A DNA stretch of 64,000 bases from Clostridiales bacterium (lineage in GTDB: Bacteria; Bacillota; Clostridia; Lachnospirales; Lachnospiraceae): assembly GCA_015655075.1 (NCBI GenBank), contig JAATFT010000055.1:62001-126000 (forward strand), written 5' to 3'. The notes under the pieces were generated by a model. That model had not been told where the DNA came from, did no database searches, and was given only the letters and a program-made list of their open reading frames with translations. Shown in pieces: positions 1,729 through 54,823 of this stretch. The position numbers were made by a program, and so were the translations under genes. Numbering within the stretch: the stretch's first letter is position 1; each line of letters opens with the position of its first letter.

Positions 1729-2607
1729 ATGATTAAATTAATAGTGGACAGCACCTGTGATTTACCCGAGGATTATATAAAGAAATATAATATTTCCGTA
1801 TTATCCCTTAAGGTTTTGCTGGAGGATAAGGAATATCTGGACAAGAAAACAATAACGGTGGACGAAGTTTATGCCGCAATGCGAAAAGGTATTATGCCTA
1901 AGACTTCGCAGCCCAGTCCCAATGAAATTTATGAGGTATTTAAAGAGTGTGCAAGCAATGGCAGAGATTTTATTTATTTGGCGTTTTCCCAGGCAATGTC
2001 GGGAACTTACCAATTAGCGCGCGGTATATTAAAGGAAATTAAGGAGCTGTATCCCAAAGTGAACATGAAAGTGATTGATTCCAAGGGCGGCTCTGCCGCA
2101 ACAGGGCTTATAGCGCTTCAGGCAGTCCGGATGGCCGATGAAAAATGTCTGGATTTTATTAAAGTGGTGGAAAAGATTAATGAGCTGATTAGTTGTGTGG
2201 AACACATTTTTACAATTTCTGATTTAAGCTGGCTTGTCAAAGGCGGAAGAGTTAGCAAAGCCCAGGGCATGCTAGGTAATATTCTGAATATTAACCCGAT
2301 CCTTCATGTGAAAGACGGAAAGATGGAAGTAATACATAAGGTAAGGGGAAGGAAAAAAGCGTTGAATATGGTTGTAGATCTATTGGAGGAAAGGGCTAAG
2401 AATCTTACGGATCAGATTATTGGAATCAGCCATGCGGATGATTTGGAAACGGCGGAGGAACTGATTGAATTAATAAAATCCAGATTGGGATGTACCAGAT
2501 TTATTGTGAATAAAATCGGCAGTGTACTGGGAAGCCATTTGGGAATAGGCGGCGTCGGAATCTTTTTTTTCAATAATAATGCAATGGATTTATTAAAAAA
2601 CACTTGA
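1729..2607 (+). CDS. DegV family fatty-acid-binding protein
   Basis: The product is about 292 residues, normal for DegV proteins. These bind a fatty acid between two alpha/beta domains; several act with fatty acid kinase (FakA) as FakB subunits that deliver acyl chains for phosphorylation and phospholipid synthesis. The N-terminal signature IVDSTCDLP is clear, and SKGGSAATG and VKGGRVSK match the lipid-pocket region. I chose ATG 1729 (MIKLIVDST) over an upstream TTG at 1708, because family members begin at this point. The next gene follows within about 75 bp. The family is certain; the bound lipid and any FakA partner are not visible here. Confidence 0.88.
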   Translation: MIKLIVDSTCDLPEDYIKKYNISVLSLKVLLEDKEYLDKKTITVDEVYAAMRKGIMPKTSQPSPNEIYEVFKECASNGRDFIYLAFSQAMSGTYQLARGILKEIKELYPKVNMKVIDSKGGSAATGLIALQAVRMADEKCLDFIKVVEKINELISCVEHIFTISDLSWLVKGGRVSKAQGMLGNILNINPILHVKDGKMEVIHKVRGRKKALNMVVDLLEERAKNLTDQIIGISHADDLETAEELIELIKSRLGCTRFIVNKIGSVLGSHLGIGGVGIFFFNNNAMDLLKNT

Positions 2608-2681
2608 AAATTACTATTAGGAAGATTAATATAGTAATTATATTAAAAATTTTGAATTATTATGAAAGAAGGATGAGTATC

Positions 2682-3752
2682 ATGTTAGATATTAGAATCG
2701 AAAAAACCACAGCCCCCAAGGAACTTCCTAAAGCGGACAATCCCCTAAAATTCGGAACAATATTTACGGATCATATGTTCATTATGAATTATAAAACCGG
2801 TAAGGGCTGGCATGATGCAAGAATAGTGCCCTATCAGCCAATCAGTTTAGAACCGTCGGCCATGGTGTTCCATTACGGACAGGCGATGTTTGAAGGTTTA
2901 AAAGCATATAAGGCAGAGAATGGAAGAGTTTTATTGTTCCGTCCTGATAAGAACATTGAAAGGGCAAACAAAACGAACCAAAGACTCTGTATTCCTGAAA
3001 TTCCTGCGGAGGATTTTTTACAGGCTTTAAAGACCGTGGTAAAAACGGAGGAAGCTTGGATTCCCCATAAACCCGGAACTTCTCTTTATATAAGGCCGTT
3101 CGCTATTGCAACGGATCCGTTTTTAGGCGTAAGGCCCGCCGATACTTATATGTTTATAATTATATTGTCTCCGGTAGGAGCTTATTATCCGGAAGGCCTA
3201 AATCCCGTTAAGATTTGGATTGAAGACGAGTATGTCAGGGCCGTGAGGGGCGGCATCGGAGAAGCTAAAACCGGCGGTAATTATGCCGCGTCCTTAAAAT
3301 CACAGGTCAAAGCCCATGATGAAGGCTATTCACAGGTCTTATGGCTGGATGGTGTTGAACGTAAGTACATTGAAGAAGTAGGAGCAATGAATATTTTCTT
3401 TAAGATTAACGGAACCGTCGTTACGCCGAAGCTGAACGGAAGTATTTTACCCGGAGTTACCAGAGATACTGTAATCCAGCTTTGTAAAGCCTGGGATCTT
3501 CCCGTCCAAGAAAGAAGGATATCCATAGAGGAGATCTATGAAGCTCATAAAAACGGTACGCTGGAAGAAGTATTCGGCACCGGAACCGCGGCGGTAATTT
3601 CTCCGGTGGGACAGTTAAGATGGGAACAGCATATAATGAAAATAAAAGACGGCGGAATCGGCGAATTCAGCCAGAAGTTCTATGATACCATAACAGGAAT
3701 TCAATTGGGTAAATTAGAAGATAAATTTAACTGGGCCGTAGAAGTAAGATAA
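2682..3752 (+). CDS. ilvE: Branched-chain amino acid aminotransferase
   Basis: This PLP-dependent fold-type IV aminotransferase interconverts leucine, isoleucine and valine with their 2-oxo acids in the cytoplasm. The roughly 356-residue length and the segments VFHYGQAMFEGLKAY, SLYIRPFAI, TGGNYAASL and EVFGTGTAAVISPVG are characteristic of the clostridial IlvE group; a Lys in the GGIGEAKTGGNYAAS region is the expected PLP-linking residue neighbourhood. The start was set at ATG 2682 because AAAGAAGG lies about 9 bases upstream; the ATG at 2673 would be too close to that site. A terminator at 3775 closes the unit. Confidence 0.93.
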   Translation: MLDIRIEKTTAPKELPKADNPLKFGTIFTDHMFIMNYKTGKGWHDARIVPYQPISLEPSAMVFHYGQAMFEGLKAYKAENGRVLLFRPDKNIERANKTNQRLCIPEIPAEDFLQALKTVVKTEEAWIPHKPGTSLYIRPFAIATDPFLGVRPADTYMFIIILSPVGAYYPEGLNPVKIWIEDEYVRAVRGGIGEAKTGGNYAASLKSQVKAHDEGYSQVLWLDGVERKYIEEVGAMNIFFKINGTVVTPKLNGSILPGVTRDTVIQLCKAWDLPVQERRISIEEIYEAHKNGTLEEVFGTGTAAVISPVGQLRWEQHIMKIKDGGIGEFSQKFYDTITGIQLGKLEDKFNWAVEVR

Positions 3753-3774
3753 TTATAGAAGAAAAATATTATTT

Positions 3775-3810
3775 AAGGGCTGATCCCTTCCCGGGACCGG
3801 CTCTTTTCTT
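3775..3810 (+). terminator. Rho-independent terminator after ilvE
   Basis: GGGCTGATCCC and GGGACCGGCTC pair with two G-U pairs and one mismatch around a short loop, followed by TTTTCTT. Confidence 0.7.
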
Positions 3811-3986
3811 ATGGTACGGAAATTACGCTGAATTTAGTCCGTATGAAACATAAAAATGTATAATAAAAGCCGCGTAATTTTAATGTTTGTTGTGCAATAA
3901 TCATATTGACGGTTAATATATAAATTAGTAGAATTAGAAGATATTTGCTAGCAATATTGTACTTATATATTAAGGAGAAAGCATAG

Positions 3987-5846
3987 ATGAACATTAAAGA
4001 TGTTATACTTGGAAAACCGTTAAAGAATAACGAGATCAGTCATGAAAAGCTGTCACGGATCTGGGGTTTACCAATTATGGCAAGTGACGCAGTGTCTTCC
4101 GTGGCATATGCGATTGAAGAAATACTCTTAATTTTAATACCGGCAATGGGGCTTCTGGCTTTTCATTCACTTCCGTTTATTGTATTGCCTATTTTATTTT
4201 TATTGGTCATACTTATATTGTCTTATTCACAAATTATTGACCATTATCCCAATGGGGGCGGTGCCTATGCCGTAGCAAAGGAAAACATCGGTAAGACAGC
4301 GGCTTTGTTATCCGCAGCCACATTGACCATTGATTATATTATGACGGTTGCAGTAAGCATTTCCTCTTCCACAGCGGCGCTGGTTTCCGCATTTCCGCTG
4401 CTGCATGATTATAAAGTACTTATTTCATTAATATGTGTTTCCCTTATCACACTTATTAATTTAAGGGGAATTCGCGAGGCCTCCAAAATTTTTGGTTTGC
4501 CTACCTATATTTTTGTTTTTTCCATGGCGATTCTGATAATCGGCGGATTATTGAAATTAATTACGGGTACATTAAATCCCATAGATTATACAAAACCCAT
4601 TCTGCCTGAAGAAACTGTGCAGGGAGTAGGAATACTCGTTTTATTAAAGGCCTTTTCTTCCGGGTGTTCAGCTATGTCCGGTGTGGAAGCCGTAAGCGAT
4701 GCCGTGCCAAGCTTTAAGGAGCCTTCAAAAAGGAATGCAAAACATATTTTATTTATCCTGGGCGGGATAATTGTTTTTATTTTTGGGGGTACGTCAATTC
4801 TTGCGGTTCATCTTCAGGTTGCCCCATTGGAAGGACATACCGTATTGTCCCAGATTTCTTCCGCAGTTTTTGGACATACCTTTATGTACTATGTAATCCA
4901 GGTATTTACCTCCCTCATATTAATACTTGCGGCTAATACGGCCTATAACGGATTACCTCAGCTTTTATATATACTTGCCCATGACGGATATGCTCCGAGA
5001 CAGTTTTCCTCCAGAGGAACAAAGCTTAGTTTTTCCAACGGCATTTTATTTATTTTTATTTCGGCCTCCCTGCTGATTATAGGCTTTAGGAGTGAAACCC
5101 ACAGGCTGATTCCACTATATTCCGTCGGGGTTTTTATATCCTTTACCGTCGCACAGATCGGAATGTATAAGAAGTGGCTCTCCCTTAAAGAAAAAAACTG
5201 GCAGTATAAATTCTGGATTAACGGTTTTGGGGCTTTGGTAACTCTTGTTGTTTCCGTTATTGTCTTTTCCATGAAATTTGCGGACGGCGCCTGGATACTT
5301 GCCATAGCAATTCCGACAATTATGACAGGGATGTATTTTATTAACAAATATTATGCGAAAATCGGAAAACAGCTTCATTTGGAAACCTTTTATCCGTATT
5401 ATAATAAAGACGCCGTAAGATCAACCCAATGTATATTATTGGTCCATGACATCAACAAACCGTTTTTAAAAGCCATTAATTATGCCAATTCCATTTCCAG
5501 TAATATCACGGCCCTCCATGTATGCCGCCATCCCGAGCATGCCAAAACACTCCGGAAAAAGTGGGATGAACTTGGAATTCCCGTGGAATTGAAGATTATT
5601 GAAACACCTTACCGTGATATTATAAAACCCATGGATAATTATTTGTGGCAGAGAGAGCAGGAATTAAATCACGGGGAGAATATTTCCGTTATACTCATAA
5701 AATTTATTACGGCCCATTGGCATGATAACCTTTTACATAATCAGACCGCTTATTTTTTAAGTCATCACTTAAGCAAGCATAAAAATATAGCTACGGTTAT
5801 TCTGCCATTCCATTATATGCTTGACGACAAACATTTTTGTAAATAG
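3987..5846 (+). CDS. APC superfamily permease, KimA-like potassium/amino acid transporter
   Basis: The 619-residue membrane protein has about twelve hydrophobic segments and then a soluble C-terminal domain of roughly 150 residues (from about 475) resembling a universal-stress-type fold. The N-terminus (GKPLKNN, then SDAVSSVAYAIEE and YPNGGGAYAVAKENIG) closely resembles KimA (YdaO), the high-affinity proton-coupled potassium importer of Bacillus, and related APC permeases. Start ATG 3987 follows AAGGAGAAAG. Bacillus kimA is controlled by a c-di-AMP riboswitch; I saw no such structure in the 235 bases upstream. The APC family is secure; potassium as substrate is inferred and an amino acid permease remains possible. 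Confidence 0.8.
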   Translation: MNIKDVILGKPLKNNEISHEKLSRIWGLPIMASDAVSSVAYAIEEILLILIPAMGLLAFHSLPFIVLPILFLLVILILSYSQIIDHYPNGGGAYAVAKENIGKTAALLSAATLTIDYIMTVAVSISSSTAALVSAFPLLHDYKVLISLICVSLITLINLRGIREASKIFGLPTYIFVFSMAILIIGGLLKLITGTLNPIDYTKPILPEETVQGVGILVLLKAFSSGCSAMSGVEAVSDAVPSFKEPSKRNAKHILFILGGIIVFIFGGTSILAVHLQVAPLEGHTVLSQISSAVFGHTFMYYVIQVFTSLILILAANTAYNGLPQLLYILAHDGYAPRQFSSRGTKLSFSNGILFIFISASLLIIGFRSETHRLIPLYSVGVFISFTVAQIGMYKKWLSLKEKNWQYKFWINGFGALVTLVVSVIVFSMKFADGAWILAIAIPTIMTGMYFINKYYAKIGKQLHLETFYPYYNKDAVRSTQCILLVHDINKPFLKAINYANSISSNITALHVCRHPEHAKTLRKKWDELGIPVELKIIETPYRDIIKPMDNYLWQREQELNHGENISVILIKFITAHWHDNLLHNQTAYFLSHHLSKHKNIATVILPFHYMLDDKHFCK

Positions 5847-50494: not shown

Positions 50495-51088
50495 TCAAAT
50501 TTTCGAAAATTTACTTATTATTATAAATTTCATTTTAGATAGTATCAAAAGTATTGAGATGATAATGAAAGAAAATAGTATTATGGTAGTATAATTAATA
50601 AGTTTAAAATAATAAAATATACTTAAAAGCAGTGTTTGAAGAGTTAAAATTATATTTACCATTTTCTTAAAAAATATAATTTCCGTATCATCTAAAGGTT
50701 TGCTTATGCTTCCCATCGGAGATAATTTATGTATTGTATAAATTGCGAATAATAAGATACATAAACCTAATATTTTATTTTTATTGATACTGATATAATT
50801 TATGATAACGCATAATATAAATATAAGAGAGTTTGAAAGAATATAACAAGTAAGTTTTCTTTTACTATGATAGCCTCCGGTGAATGTCCTCAAAGTGATA
50901 AATGATGATAAAAATACCAGAACCGTAATTAGCTTATGCATACATACACCAATACATATAGCAGTCAATATATTAATGAGTATATTGATCGTGCTTTTAA
51001 TTCCATAATTATATAATTCCTTATCCTGTGTATCTATGATATTTTTATCTATCATCTGCTGTACAATTAAGCCTGAAATATTAATCAT
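50495..51088 (-). CDS. agrB: AgrB-like peptide-processing membrane protease
   Basis: The 197-residue protein has five to six hydrophobic segments. The AgrB catalytic pair is present as His74 and Cys81 in FTGGYHSKRKLTC. AgrB cuts the C-terminal tail of AgrD and forms the cyclic thiolactone autoinducer at the membrane. It is the last gene of the minus-strand operon; its ATG overlaps the agrD stop codon (ATGA), so the two are translationally coupled. Base composition is far more A+T-rich than the neighbouring GH31 gene. Confidence 0.9.
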   Translation of the reverse strand: MINISGLIVQQMIDKNIIDTQDKELYNYGIKSTINILINILTAICIGVCMHKLITVLVFLSSFITLRTFTGGYHSKRKLTCYILSNSLIFILCVIINYISINKNKILGLCILLFAIYTIHKLSPMGSISKPLDDTEIIFFKKMVNIILTLQTLLLSIFYYFKLINYTTIILFSFIIISILLILSKMKFIIISKFSKI

Positions 51089-51177
51089 ACAAACTTTCTT
51101 AATTTTTTAGCGCTATCGGGAAGAGAATCCTGATACATAATATACCAGCAAGTTATATTGGCACTAACAGTTACCAT
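51085..51177 (-). CDS. agrD: AgrD-like cyclic autoinducer precursor (30 residues)
   Basis: The 30-codon frame from ATG 51177 encodes VSANITCWYIMYQ followed by an acidic then basic tail (DSLPDSAKKLRKF). This is the standard clostridial AgrD pattern: SAN-T-C, a five-residue ring (probably Cys-Trp-Tyr-Ile-Met), then YQ and a charged tail removed by AgrB. The usual N-terminal amphipathic helix of about 20 residues is missing or very short, because the frame is preceded by a stop a few codons upstream. It overlaps the end of the kinase gene by 14 bases and the start of agrB by 4. The missing leader may impair membrane presentation. Confidence 0.8.
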   Translation of the reverse strand: MVTVSANITCWYIMYQDSLPDSAKKLRKFV

Positions 51178-52069
51178 AAGAAATAAGTACGGAATTTAAA
51201 ACAATATTAGTCGTATAAATAGTATTCTCTACCTCATCCAGTTCAAGAAAAATTTTATTAAATTCGTTTTTTACAGATGTATTATCTTTTTCAAAGCTAT
51301 CATATAGACTAATCAACTGATTTTTAATATCATGTCTAACCTTTCGTAATTGCTTATTACTTTCATCCATTTCCCGATAATAATTCTCATTAAGCTTGTT
51401 TTCCAGCAGCATAAGGTCATTTTGATGCTCTTTCCATATCATAAAGTTAAATTTTTTGAAGATGTAGAATATGATATAATTACTAAATAACACCATTATA
51501 ATGATAGAAAGACAAAGAATACTGCTTTCCAAATCTTGATTATGCCATACAAGTCTTATAATTAAGCAGCAACTGATTATTCCCGTAATTGGAATAATTA
51601 TTAATAAGGCTATTATATTTTTAGGAAGCTTTACTATTTTTTCAGTCCGAAAATAACAAAGTACTTTTATAATAAGAAATCGAAGTAATTCACAGATAAT
51701 AATTCCGATATAATATTCTTCTATGAAGTTATCTCCCTTTAGAATATATAAGGCTGTTTGTAATATTAATAAGCCAACCGGTTCCACGACGAAACCGATT
51801 CCTATATACATAATTACCAATATAAATCTTGAGGATAAAATGCATGAATATTGAAGACTAAAAATATATATAATTAACAGGCAGCCGATCAGATTTACTG
51901 AAGGAATGCCAAGTCTATTAATGCAGGTAAGAGCTGCGGCGCTAGTTATTAATGTTATAAGATGGACTAACGGGGGGGATTTTCTATTATGGGCAAAGCA
52001 ATTCATATATTTTGTTTGTATTAAAAAATCAAAAAAATTAGCAGCAAATAGAATAATTATTTCTGTCAT
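51164..52069 (-). CDS. AgrC-like sensor kinase lacking its ATP-binding domain
   Basis: The 301-residue protein has six or seven membrane segments (to about 205), a coiled-coil dimerisation helix, and an H-box KVRHDIKNQL with phospho-acceptor His246. It ends in the middle of the N-box (TTNIVLNSVLIS then a stop), whereas AgrC-type kinases run on for about 130 residues with the G-boxes of the HATPase_c domain. It can therefore sense but not autophosphorylate. It starts within the response-regulator stop (ATGA) and its 3' end overlaps agrD. Either a deletion removed the kinase end and the agrD start, or the truncation is functional. Confidence 0.8.
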   Translation of the reverse strand: MTEIIILFAANFFDFLIQTKYMNCFAHNRKSPPLVHLITLITSAAALTCINRLGIPSVNLIGCLLIIYIFSLQYSCILSSRFILVIMYIGIGFVVEPVGLLILQTALYILKGDNFIEEYYIGIIICELLRFLIIKVLCYFRTEKIVKLPKNIIALLIIIPITGIISCCLIIRLVWHNQDLESSILCLSIIIMVLFSNYIIFYIFKKFNFMIWKEHQNDLMLLENKLNENYYREMDESNKQLRKVRHDIKNQLISLYDSFEKDNTSVKNEFNKIFLELDEVENTIYTTNIVLNSVLISYGNC

Positions 52070-52773
52070 AATTTATTATTTAAAAACTCTAAATGTTTAA
52101 GTTTAACTTGCTGCCGATAATTTCTGCTAATATATAAAATTTCATCCGTTTTTAAAATAAGCTCTCCTCTGACAATTTCTCTTATATATTCCATATTTAT
52201 TATATATGAAATATGTATATTAACGAAAAGATGTTCATCTAATTGTGACCATATCTCTTCGAGTGTCATATTAAATTGATATAACTTATTATTTGTATGG
52301 ATAAAAGCTTTTCGTCTATTTTTTTCAATATAAATGATATCCCCACAGGCTAAATTGTACCTATTTTTTCGATAACTGAAGGCAAAATTACTTTTGGTTA
52401 ATTTAAGGTAAGAGGATACTTTATCCAAAATTTGAATAAATTTATCATATTCGATAGGCTTTCGAATGAAATCAAAGGTGATTACTTCAAATACATCATA
52501 AACATACTGAGGATAGCTGGTTAAATATATAAACAAAGCCCTTGGCTCTGTATTTCTTAGTTTCTTGGCAAGGGTAATCCCATCTAAATTTTCCATCTCT
52601 ATATCCAGAATATATAAATTATAATGAATATCTTGTTTATTTTTATAATCCAGAAGTTCATTACCACTAAAAAAAACATCATATTCATAATTCCGGTTAT
52701 GGAGTGTATCAAAGTAGCGTTCAATTTTCTCAATTACCTTTGTATCATCGTCACATACAGCAATAGAAATCAT
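52066..52773 (-). CDS. LytTR-family response regulator (AgrA-like)
   Basis: The 235-residue regulator has an N-terminal receiver domain (acidic CDDD at 7-10, phospho-acceptor Asp57 in LYILDIEM, conserved Lys near 106 in FIRKPIE) and a C-terminal LytTR DNA-binding domain (about 140-235, ending HLEFLNN). Such proteins bind paired imperfect direct repeats and activate autoinducer operons. A purine-rich AAGGATG precedes ATG 52773. With the cognate kinase lacking an ATPase domain, phosphorylation would need another donor or not occur. Confidence 0.9.
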   Translation of the reverse strand: MISIAVCDDDTKVIEKIERYFDTLHNRNYEYDVFFSGNELLDYKNKQDIHYNLYILDIEMENLDGITLAKKLRNTEPRALFIYLTSYPQYVYDVFEVITFDFIRKPIEYDKFIQILDKVSSYLKLTKSNFAFSYRKNRYNLACGDIIYIEKNRRKAFIHTNNKLYQFNMTLEEIWSQLDEHLFVNIHISYIINMEYIREIVRGELILKTDEILYISRNYRQQVKLKHLEFLNNKL

Positions 52774-52795
52774 CTACTTTCACATCCTTTGTAAG

Positions 52796-53029
52796 TTAAT
52801 CATCTTCTACACAAGAATCAAAAAACTTGGAAGAAAAAAATTCCTTCATTGAAATTTCAAAACCATCACATAATCTACTAATCGTAGTAATAGTTGGATT
52901 TTTTCCATGTATGATATTCATTAGGGTAGACATGGGAACAGCAGAGCGGTATGATAGAACATAGTAACTAATCTGTCTTTGAGAACATAATTCATTGATG
53001 CGGTTTACTACAGCTTCCCTACTTTTCAA
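52796..53029 (-). CDS. Small XRE-family transcriptional regulator
   Basis: The protein of about 77 residues is a single helix-turn-helix domain (SYYVLSYRSAVPMSTLMNII, then NPTITTISRLCDGFEISMKEF). I favour TTG 53029 as start because GGGGGA lies seven bases upstream and the promoter at 53082-53054 then leaves a short leader; ATG 53044 gives 82 residues but almost no leader. It is the first gene of the agr-type operon and is probably its local repressor or modulator. C-terminal residues are acidic. Confidence 0.82.
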   Translation of the reverse strand: MKSREAVVNRINELCSQRQISYYVLSYRSAVPMSTLMNIIHGKNPTITTISRLCDGFEISMKEFFSSKFFDSCVEDD

Positions 53030-53053
53030 GACATAATCCCCCATCTAAATATA

Positions 53054-53082
53054 ATAATATTATATCCTATTTATATTGACAA
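53054..53082 (-). promoter_or_regulatory. Promoter of the agr-type operon
   Basis: On the minus strand TTGTCA (53082-53077) and TATTAT (53059-53054) are 17 bp apart. Predicted start is near 53047. Confidence 0.5.
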
Positions 53083-53383
53083 TTACTACCTTATATGGGA
53101 GTAATTTTATTAGATTATAAAAGAAATATTACATTGAAAATGGTAAGTCTGAAAAAAATATCATAAATTTATAAATTATAAGTAAATAATATAAATTTTT
53201 TAATGTACATTCCGTGTAATATAATCGCATAATACTTATATCAGTATTCTCAACATGACTGAATGACATTCACCGCTTTCAAATTTGATGCATTCGTTAT
53301 AACATTTTCCATCGTAAAAAGATGAGGATTGCGGAAGAACCTAATTACTTCAAGAATATTCATTTGTATGAAATATAATTTAA

Positions 53384-53453
53384 TGACAATTCATGTCAGA
53401 TAAAGTACATAATGTGGCTTAAAATGGAAAATAGAAATCATTTTAATTATAAT
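53384..53453 (+). promoter_or_regulatory. Putative promoter and dyad operator before the secreted-protein gene
   Basis: TATAAT at 53448-53453 has TGGAAA 17 bp upstream (53425-53430). The dyad TGACA-ATTCA-TGTCA at 53384-53398 lies just upstream, and GAATGACATTC occurs near 53263. The rest of 53045-53383 contains no gene. Confidence 0.4.
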
Positions 53454-53515
53454 AAAATTACAAACAAAATATCGATATTAGTTTGAAAGTAATTATTCGC
53501 AAAGGAGGCTTTTTT

Positions 53516-54028
53516 ATGTCTAAAGTTTTTAAAAAGTTTATTTTAGGTTTTTTAGTTATGGTTCTGGTAACATTAACATTGTCACCCCCACCGATTAGTA
53601 ATGCAGCTGTTAATGATAATCAAGTTTCTACTATAACGGCAAAAAAAACTTATCCAACTGAATGGACTCAGAGATTTGATGCAACACAATATTCCAGTGC
53701 AAAATTAAAAAAAGCATCAAAAGCTATTCTAGCTGCTGCAATAATTGCAGCTTTTGGAAAAACAGGATTAACATCAGAGACATTTGCTAAAACTATTGCT
53801 AGTGCTTTACTTAGTAATTTCTATGTCAATAGTGAGACACAAGATGTTTATTATTCCTATGAAGTTTATTACAGGGAATTAGGTCCTGGTAAATTTGATT
53901 CTATAGGAAATTTTTTAGGAGACTATCAAATTAAAGTAGTTGAAACAACTTATTCAAATGTCGGGATGACAAAAAAGATATCTTCCAATATTACATATTA
54001 CAAGAGTACTAGTATTTTTTATTGGTAA
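53516..54028 (+). CDS. Small secreted protein of unknown function beside the agr-type locus
   Basis: The 170-residue protein begins with a clear signal peptide (basic SKVFKK, hydrophobic FILGFLVMVLVTL, cleavage likely after ISNA or ISNAA). A Lys-rich linker leads to an amphipathic, alanine-rich segment (ASKAILAAAIIAAFGKTG), and the C-terminal half is Tyr-rich and probably beta-stranded. AAAGGAGG precedes ATG 53516. I do not recognise the family. Its divergent placement next to an Agr-type operon in an A+T-rich insert suggests a quorum-controlled secreted factor such as a bacteriocin-like protein; that is inference. Confidence 0.72.
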   Translation: MSKVFKKFILGFLVMVLVTLTLSPPPISNAAVNDNQVSTITAKKTYPTEWTQRFDATQYSSAKLKKASKAILAAAIIAAFGKTGLTSETFAKTIASALLSNFYVNSETQDVYYSYEVYYRELGPGKFDSIGNFLGDYQIKVVETTYSNVGMTKKISSNITYYKSTSIFYW

Positions 54029-54582: not shown

Positions 54583-54823
54583 TGGCAATAGAAAATGTAT
54601 CTTTTTTGGCAACTAAAAATGTACTTCCTATTGTCACCTACAGGACTCTCACCGTTAGGTAATTAAATAATTACTCTTTATCATTACCTTTCAGATAAGC
54701 TTTACGGTGCTCTAGCCGGTAATTTTTACCTTCAAGGTGTATGACATCACATCGATACATTAGACGGTCAAGAGCTGCTGAAACTAACTTCCCGTCATCA
54801 CTGAACAGTTCCTGCCATTCTTC
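54583..54823 (-). mobile_element. IS21-family remnant: terminus and istB 3' end
   Basis: Minus-strand translation from about 54823 gives EEWQELFSDDGKLVSAALDR, then LMYRCDVIHLEGKNYRLEHR and a stop at 54671, the C-terminus of an IstB-type ATPase helper. The outer end carries TAGTTGCCAAAAAAGATAC and TTTTCTATTGCC, which resemble IS21 terminal repeats. IstA and most of istB are missing, so the element is dead. Confidence 0.68.

Follow-up and report, generated by a model that had tools for sequence, protein, structure and literature searches.

A truncated receptor kinase and a shortened AgrD leader in an agr-type operon of a Clostridiales bacterium, probably the result of a single deletion

Genes of the operon and its two shortened members

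The window, a stretch of 64,000 nucleotides (G000:C74:62001-126000) from a Clostridiales bacterium whose 4.51 Mb draft genome consists of 98 contigs and is 78.6% complete, contains an agr-type operon. Its five genes are all encoded on the minus strand and are transcribed in the order XRE regulator, LytTR response regulator, kinase, agrD and agrB (Table 1), an arrangement that a first-pass annotation had read from the sequence and that coordinates and family matches bear out. The LytTR gene starts 22 nt past the XRE gene, and agrD shares 14 nt with the kinase gene and 4 nt with agrB. Two components of an agr-type system are clearly recognisable: the response regulator scores above the cut-offs of both PF04397 and PF00072, and the AgrB peptidase reaches 116.6 bits, against a PF04647 cut-off of 23, over nearly its full length. 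The regulator is 44–46% identical to those of three related loci (L080, L099 and L072; 44% for L099), and the XRE is 43–46% identical to XREs adjoining agr genes in two other genomes, G319 and G706.

Table 1. Features of the window, and the other broken kinases found among surveyed AgrB places
Feature	Position	Strand	Description
AgrB membrane peptidase	50495..51088	-	197 aa, intact; Pfam AgrB E 1.1e-33, profile 4-183 of 185
agrD	51085..51177	-	30 aa, MVTVSANIT-CWYIM-YQDSLPDSAKKLRKFV; TIGR04223 E 1.2e-6, positions 12-38 of 38
Inferred deletion junction, kinase linker/agrD leader	51184..51190	-	located to within this range
AgrC-like sensor kinase, truncated	51164..52069	-	301 aa; overlaps regulator gene by 4 nt
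LytTR response regulator (AgrA-like)	52066..52773	-	235 aa, intact; Pfam LytTR 2.6e-18, Response_reg 3.3e-14
XRE-type (Cro/C1, HTH_26) regulator	52796..53044	-	82 aa, intact; Pfam HTH_26 E 2.5e-8
Protein with apparent signal peptide	53516-54028	+	170 aa; divergently oriented to the agr operon; nothing above cut-off in Pfam or NCBIfam
IS21-type IstB C-terminal remnant	54674-54823	-	PF01695, E 7.9e-8, profile 197-236 of 238; between secreted-protein gene and LysR gene
L079 (G376) broken kinase	2541-4033	-	only model positions 256-411 matched, large internal loss; AgrD and AgrB intact
L114 (G417) broken kinase	2546-5012	-	one stop within ATPase part; AgrD and AgrB intact
L137 broken kinase			front part missing from frame
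L142 (G706) broken kinase	2613-3918	-	front and ATPase parts in two overlapping frames

The kinase retains its membrane part and a histidine motif (RHDIKN) and lacks the ATPase domain. No HATPase match was returned for it by a Pfam search; in two intact relatives HATPase_c_5 is matched (6.6e-21 and 8.2e-22) beyond the point where the window kinase ends. On a 412-position model built in this analysis from related kinases it spans positions 3–291, and with no HATPase match it falls short of an AgrC receptor kinase with a GHKL ATPase. Aligned by MAFFT with five full kinases, to which its aligned identity is 25–35%, it tracks them to ...NIVLNSVL and then ends, in the linker (TTNIVLNSVL) between the histidine-bearing and ATPase domains. 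This point is upstream of the true N-box, which reads GNLLDNAIEAC in the relatives and is missing here with the whole ATPase domain. The earlier claim of a kinase without an ATPase domain thus holds, whereas its placing of the stop inside the N-box does not. The last six kinase residues are encoded by agrD-leader DNA in a different frame; a MAFFT match between YGN...C at the kinase end and YGNLLDNAIEAC of the relatives was judged to be chance, because this same DNA is the AgrD leader in the other frame. A separate ATPase domain was sought in the host genome, where all six matches fall in open frames of 441–461 aa and none is an orphan, a lack that is not certain because the genome is 78.6% complete.

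Of the parts of an AgrD precursor, namely a leader, a ring cysteine and an acidic or charged tail, the window AgrD keeps the core and tail and has lost the front of the leader, which is cut to nine residues. The open frame translates as IPYLFLMVTVSANITCWYIMYQDSLPDSAKKLRKFV, for comparison with ...GALSSVAALALMVTAVNTSSCCWYIFGQDKLPENAKKLRKF in the AgrD of L072. Its score of 28.6 bits exceeds the NCBIfam TIGR04223 cut-off of 19 over model positions 12–38 of 38 only, whereas four intact AgrDs match from position 2–4. The sole start codon in the frame is nine residues ahead of the ring cysteine, an in-frame stop (51196-51198) stands seven codons upstream of it, and inspection by eye shows nothing resembling a Shine-Dalgarno sequence ahead of the ATG. 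In the other scored AgrDs the farthest start codon, not always the true start, stands at least 23 residues ahead of the cysteine, the exceptions being L147, whose cysteine was misassigned by the script, and two rows in which no cysteine was matched.

The gene for the apparently secreted protein was considered as a target of the system and rejected, since a relative (44% identity) occurs in one of the 14 other genomes of the genus (G011), with no agr genes adjoining it. A repeat search of 53045-53530 gave one weak direct pair, AT-rich inverted pairs and no convincing LytTR site.

Related loci

AgrB is matched in 112 of 397 genomes of the family. From the best 61 matches listed, 58 places were taken together with two further places in the host's own genome, making 60; G427 (a copy of G378), G186 (agrB interrupted by a stop) and G406 (located where a contig begins) were left out. 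With 17 further loci and an additional set of regions these yielded 81 AgrB rows, or 75 distinct places once six duplicates had been dropped, a sample of best matches and not a random draw. Plain LytTR-HK-AgrD-AgrB is the commonest layout (31 of the 75) and recurs with additions in three more places (the window, L080 and L114). The regulator-first order noted in the first-pass annotation is therefore present but not unusual, and a new operon layout was rejected.

A complete linked kinase is found in 57 of the 75 places; the kinase is broken in five (the window included), cut by the end of the stretch in four, and absent within 2.5 kb of AgrB in nine. Among the 62 uncut linked kinases, then, 57 are complete, only the window kinase lacks the ATPase part altogether, and the other four are broken differently (Table 1); a short kinase of the same form across many genomes, the outcome that had been named as telling against a deletion, was not found. 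The host genome itself has six AgrB matches (C74, C85, C19, C60 and C93 among the matches listed), so that several agr circuits coexist in it, and full-length kinases lie near those on C85, C19, C60 and C93.

A near relative of the window XRE accompanies AgrB in three of the 75 places: the window, L099 (G319) and L142 (G706). Both L099 and L142 are ordered XRE-LytTR-LytTR-kinase, with AgrD-AgrB divergent. The kinase is complete in G319 and in two frames in G706, the break falling in a poly(A) run some twelve residues ahead of the window break (model positions 278 and 291, respectively). From the comparison of the G319 and G706 kinases, with dN 0.12 and dS 0.59 in the ATPase part and dN 0.10 and dS 0.65 in the front part, the L142 ATPase part appears to be still constrained, or its interruption recent. 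Reversion of S. aureus agr through a poly(A) change is described in a passage of an unrelated report (PMC10482373). With two of the three XRE loci interrupted, the window by a deletion and G706 by its poly(A) frame break, it could be supposed that XRE-headed agr loci repeatedly part the receptor from its ATPase at the same linker, as a reversible or selected uncoupling of listening from response. The pattern was noticed post hoc and two of three are too few for a rule; we regard this as highly improbable.

A model built here, which picks up near relatives of the window XRE only, found such proteins in 71 of 397 genomes of the family (E<=1e-8) and 43 of 392 of the order (E<=1e-15). AgrB was present in only three (the window, L170 and L200) of 19 regions inspected around them (the window, L158-L164, L170 and L200-L209), and the XRE was rejected as a marker for agr. 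In L201 (G706 contig C3) a near relative of the window XRE sits beside a partial LytTR match, with no AgrB in the 13 kb inspected.

Scans with single proteins, which reach close relatives only, gave 40 pattern matches in genome contigs and one in viral contigs, none of them confirmed, no match in plasmids, and two unannotated phage records at 28–30% identity. A mobile origin received no support from the plasmid, phage and viral-contig scans. A literature search by title, with subscription journals mostly outside its scope, found no such locus described.

The junction and its possible origins

Three of the related loci, L072, L080 and L133, have the layout and the kind of AgrD core seen in the window, together with a complete kinase and AgrD leader; these are the full kinase and longer agrD that the first-pass annotation had proposed to look for in related loci. 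In the window, the kinase reading fits the relatives up to the SVL codons and the agrD reading fits them from LFLMVT onward. From the end of the SVL-type codons to the leucine codon before (M/T)VT there are 646 nt in L072, 574 nt in L080 and 587 nt in L133, and only 4 nt in the window. Compared with these intact loci, the window lacks a single block made up of the kinase ATPase domain, the gap that follows it and the front half of the agrD leader, and one deletion of about 0.57–0.64 kb would explain both losses. The distances thus support the earlier suggestion that a deletion fused the kinase end to the agrD core. Nothing from the same species, or with proteins more than about 50% identical, turned up among the relatives, so that the direct ancestor was not seen.

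It is accordingly a good deal more probable than any other reading considered here that an ordinary regulator-kinase-AgrD-AgrB operon with an XRE in front was hit by one deletion of ~0.6 kb, which would have disabled the receptor and probably the signal too. As in natural agr loss of function, intact homologous operons exist and the ATPase domain has been removed here. Running counter to decay by deletion, the other genes have stayed intact, with the neat overlaps of a working operon.

The strain could instead carry an intact operon from which ~0.6 kb was lost in assembly or binning, as the draft state of the genome (98 contigs, 78.6% complete) and the occurrence of the loss in one genome only would allow. 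Such a collapse, however, would require a repeat common to both ends. The stops in the agrD frame (51196-51198) and the kinase frame (51164-51166) confine any shared stretch to 51167-51195, at most 29 nt, because a stop could not have stood within either gene while it was intact; judged by the fit to the relatives, the stretch would be far below 29 nt, and no more than 6–7 nt are common to the two sites in the three relatives when 60-nt stretches are compared. The site is, moreover, internal to a contig of 166,625 bases. On these sequence grounds a real deletion appears more likely, and an artefact rather unlikely.

The short form might also be functional, the kinase stub being a decoy receptor, or a phospho-acceptor served by the ATPase domain of another kinase, with the leader-poor AgrD still being processed. 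This would suit the preserved reading frames, the complete AgrD core and tail, and gene overlaps that would permit coupled translation, as well as the other full-length AgrC-like kinases in the same genome and the XRE-linked kinase of G706, interrupted about a dozen residues away with its ATPase frame conserved. Yet the same short kinase occurs in none of the 74 other distinct AgrB places, the closest paralogous kinases in the genome, at about 21–25% identity, would be poor partners, and a passage of PMC10482373 treats the AgrD leader as essential in S. aureus. We therefore consider a functional short form very unlikely.

Under the preferred reading, that of a single deletion, the kinase would be capable of neither autophosphorylation nor phosphorylation of the regulator. 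An AgrD core remains encoded, but signal production would probably be inefficient because the amphipathic leader front and a ribosome-binding site of its own are lacking. The regulator and XRE would be left without their usual input, and this agr circuit, one of several in the cell, would no longer receive a signal and would probably not send one either. Because histidine kinases generally require their ATPase domain to function, and S. aureus needs the AgrD helix, deafness, and probably muteness, is the expected state of the locus. In S. aureus, according to passages of two reports (PMC10482373, PMC10196373), AgrB cleaves AgrD at its tail and makes the ring, and recognition and processing depend on the amphipathic helix at the N-terminus of AgrD; the need for the leader in processing comes from cell assays described in one of these (PMC10482373).

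Comparison with known agr systems

The window locus is most probably an agr system of known kind that has been disabled. It also cautions that a kinase with an H-box and membrane part adjoining agrD-agrB cannot be assumed to be a working receptor. Should the deletion be real, this would be a case of agr decay outside Staphylococcus, in which one event struck both receptor and signal, in a genome that has several agr circuits. The XRE-linked agr loci form a small group, the naming of which would be worthwhile only if more were found. Their other members, the G319 and G706 loci (L099/L170 and L142/L200), have in common with the window a related XRE, a related regulator and an AgrD tail of the LPENAKKLRKF type, and differ in their two regulators and divergent AgrD-AgrB.

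With agr operons in general (TIGR04223, PF04647, GHKL kinase and LytTR), the window shares AgrB, the AgrD core, the sensor part of the kinase and the LytTR regulator, in the gene order that prevails in the survey; it differs by the missing ATPase domain and AgrD leader front, and by the XRE gene in front. The agr operon of S. aureus is ordered BDCA, unlike the operon in the window (PMC12405376). A further parallel is with agr-defective natural variants of S. aureus, in which, in passages of PMC8768832, agr is lost spontaneously, frameshifts occur in >5% of genomes and are short-lived, and agrC carries the largest number of distinct ones. Like these, the window operon is affected in the receptor kinase; it would differ from them in belonging to another family, and in a single block deletion that appears to have struck receptor and signal together.
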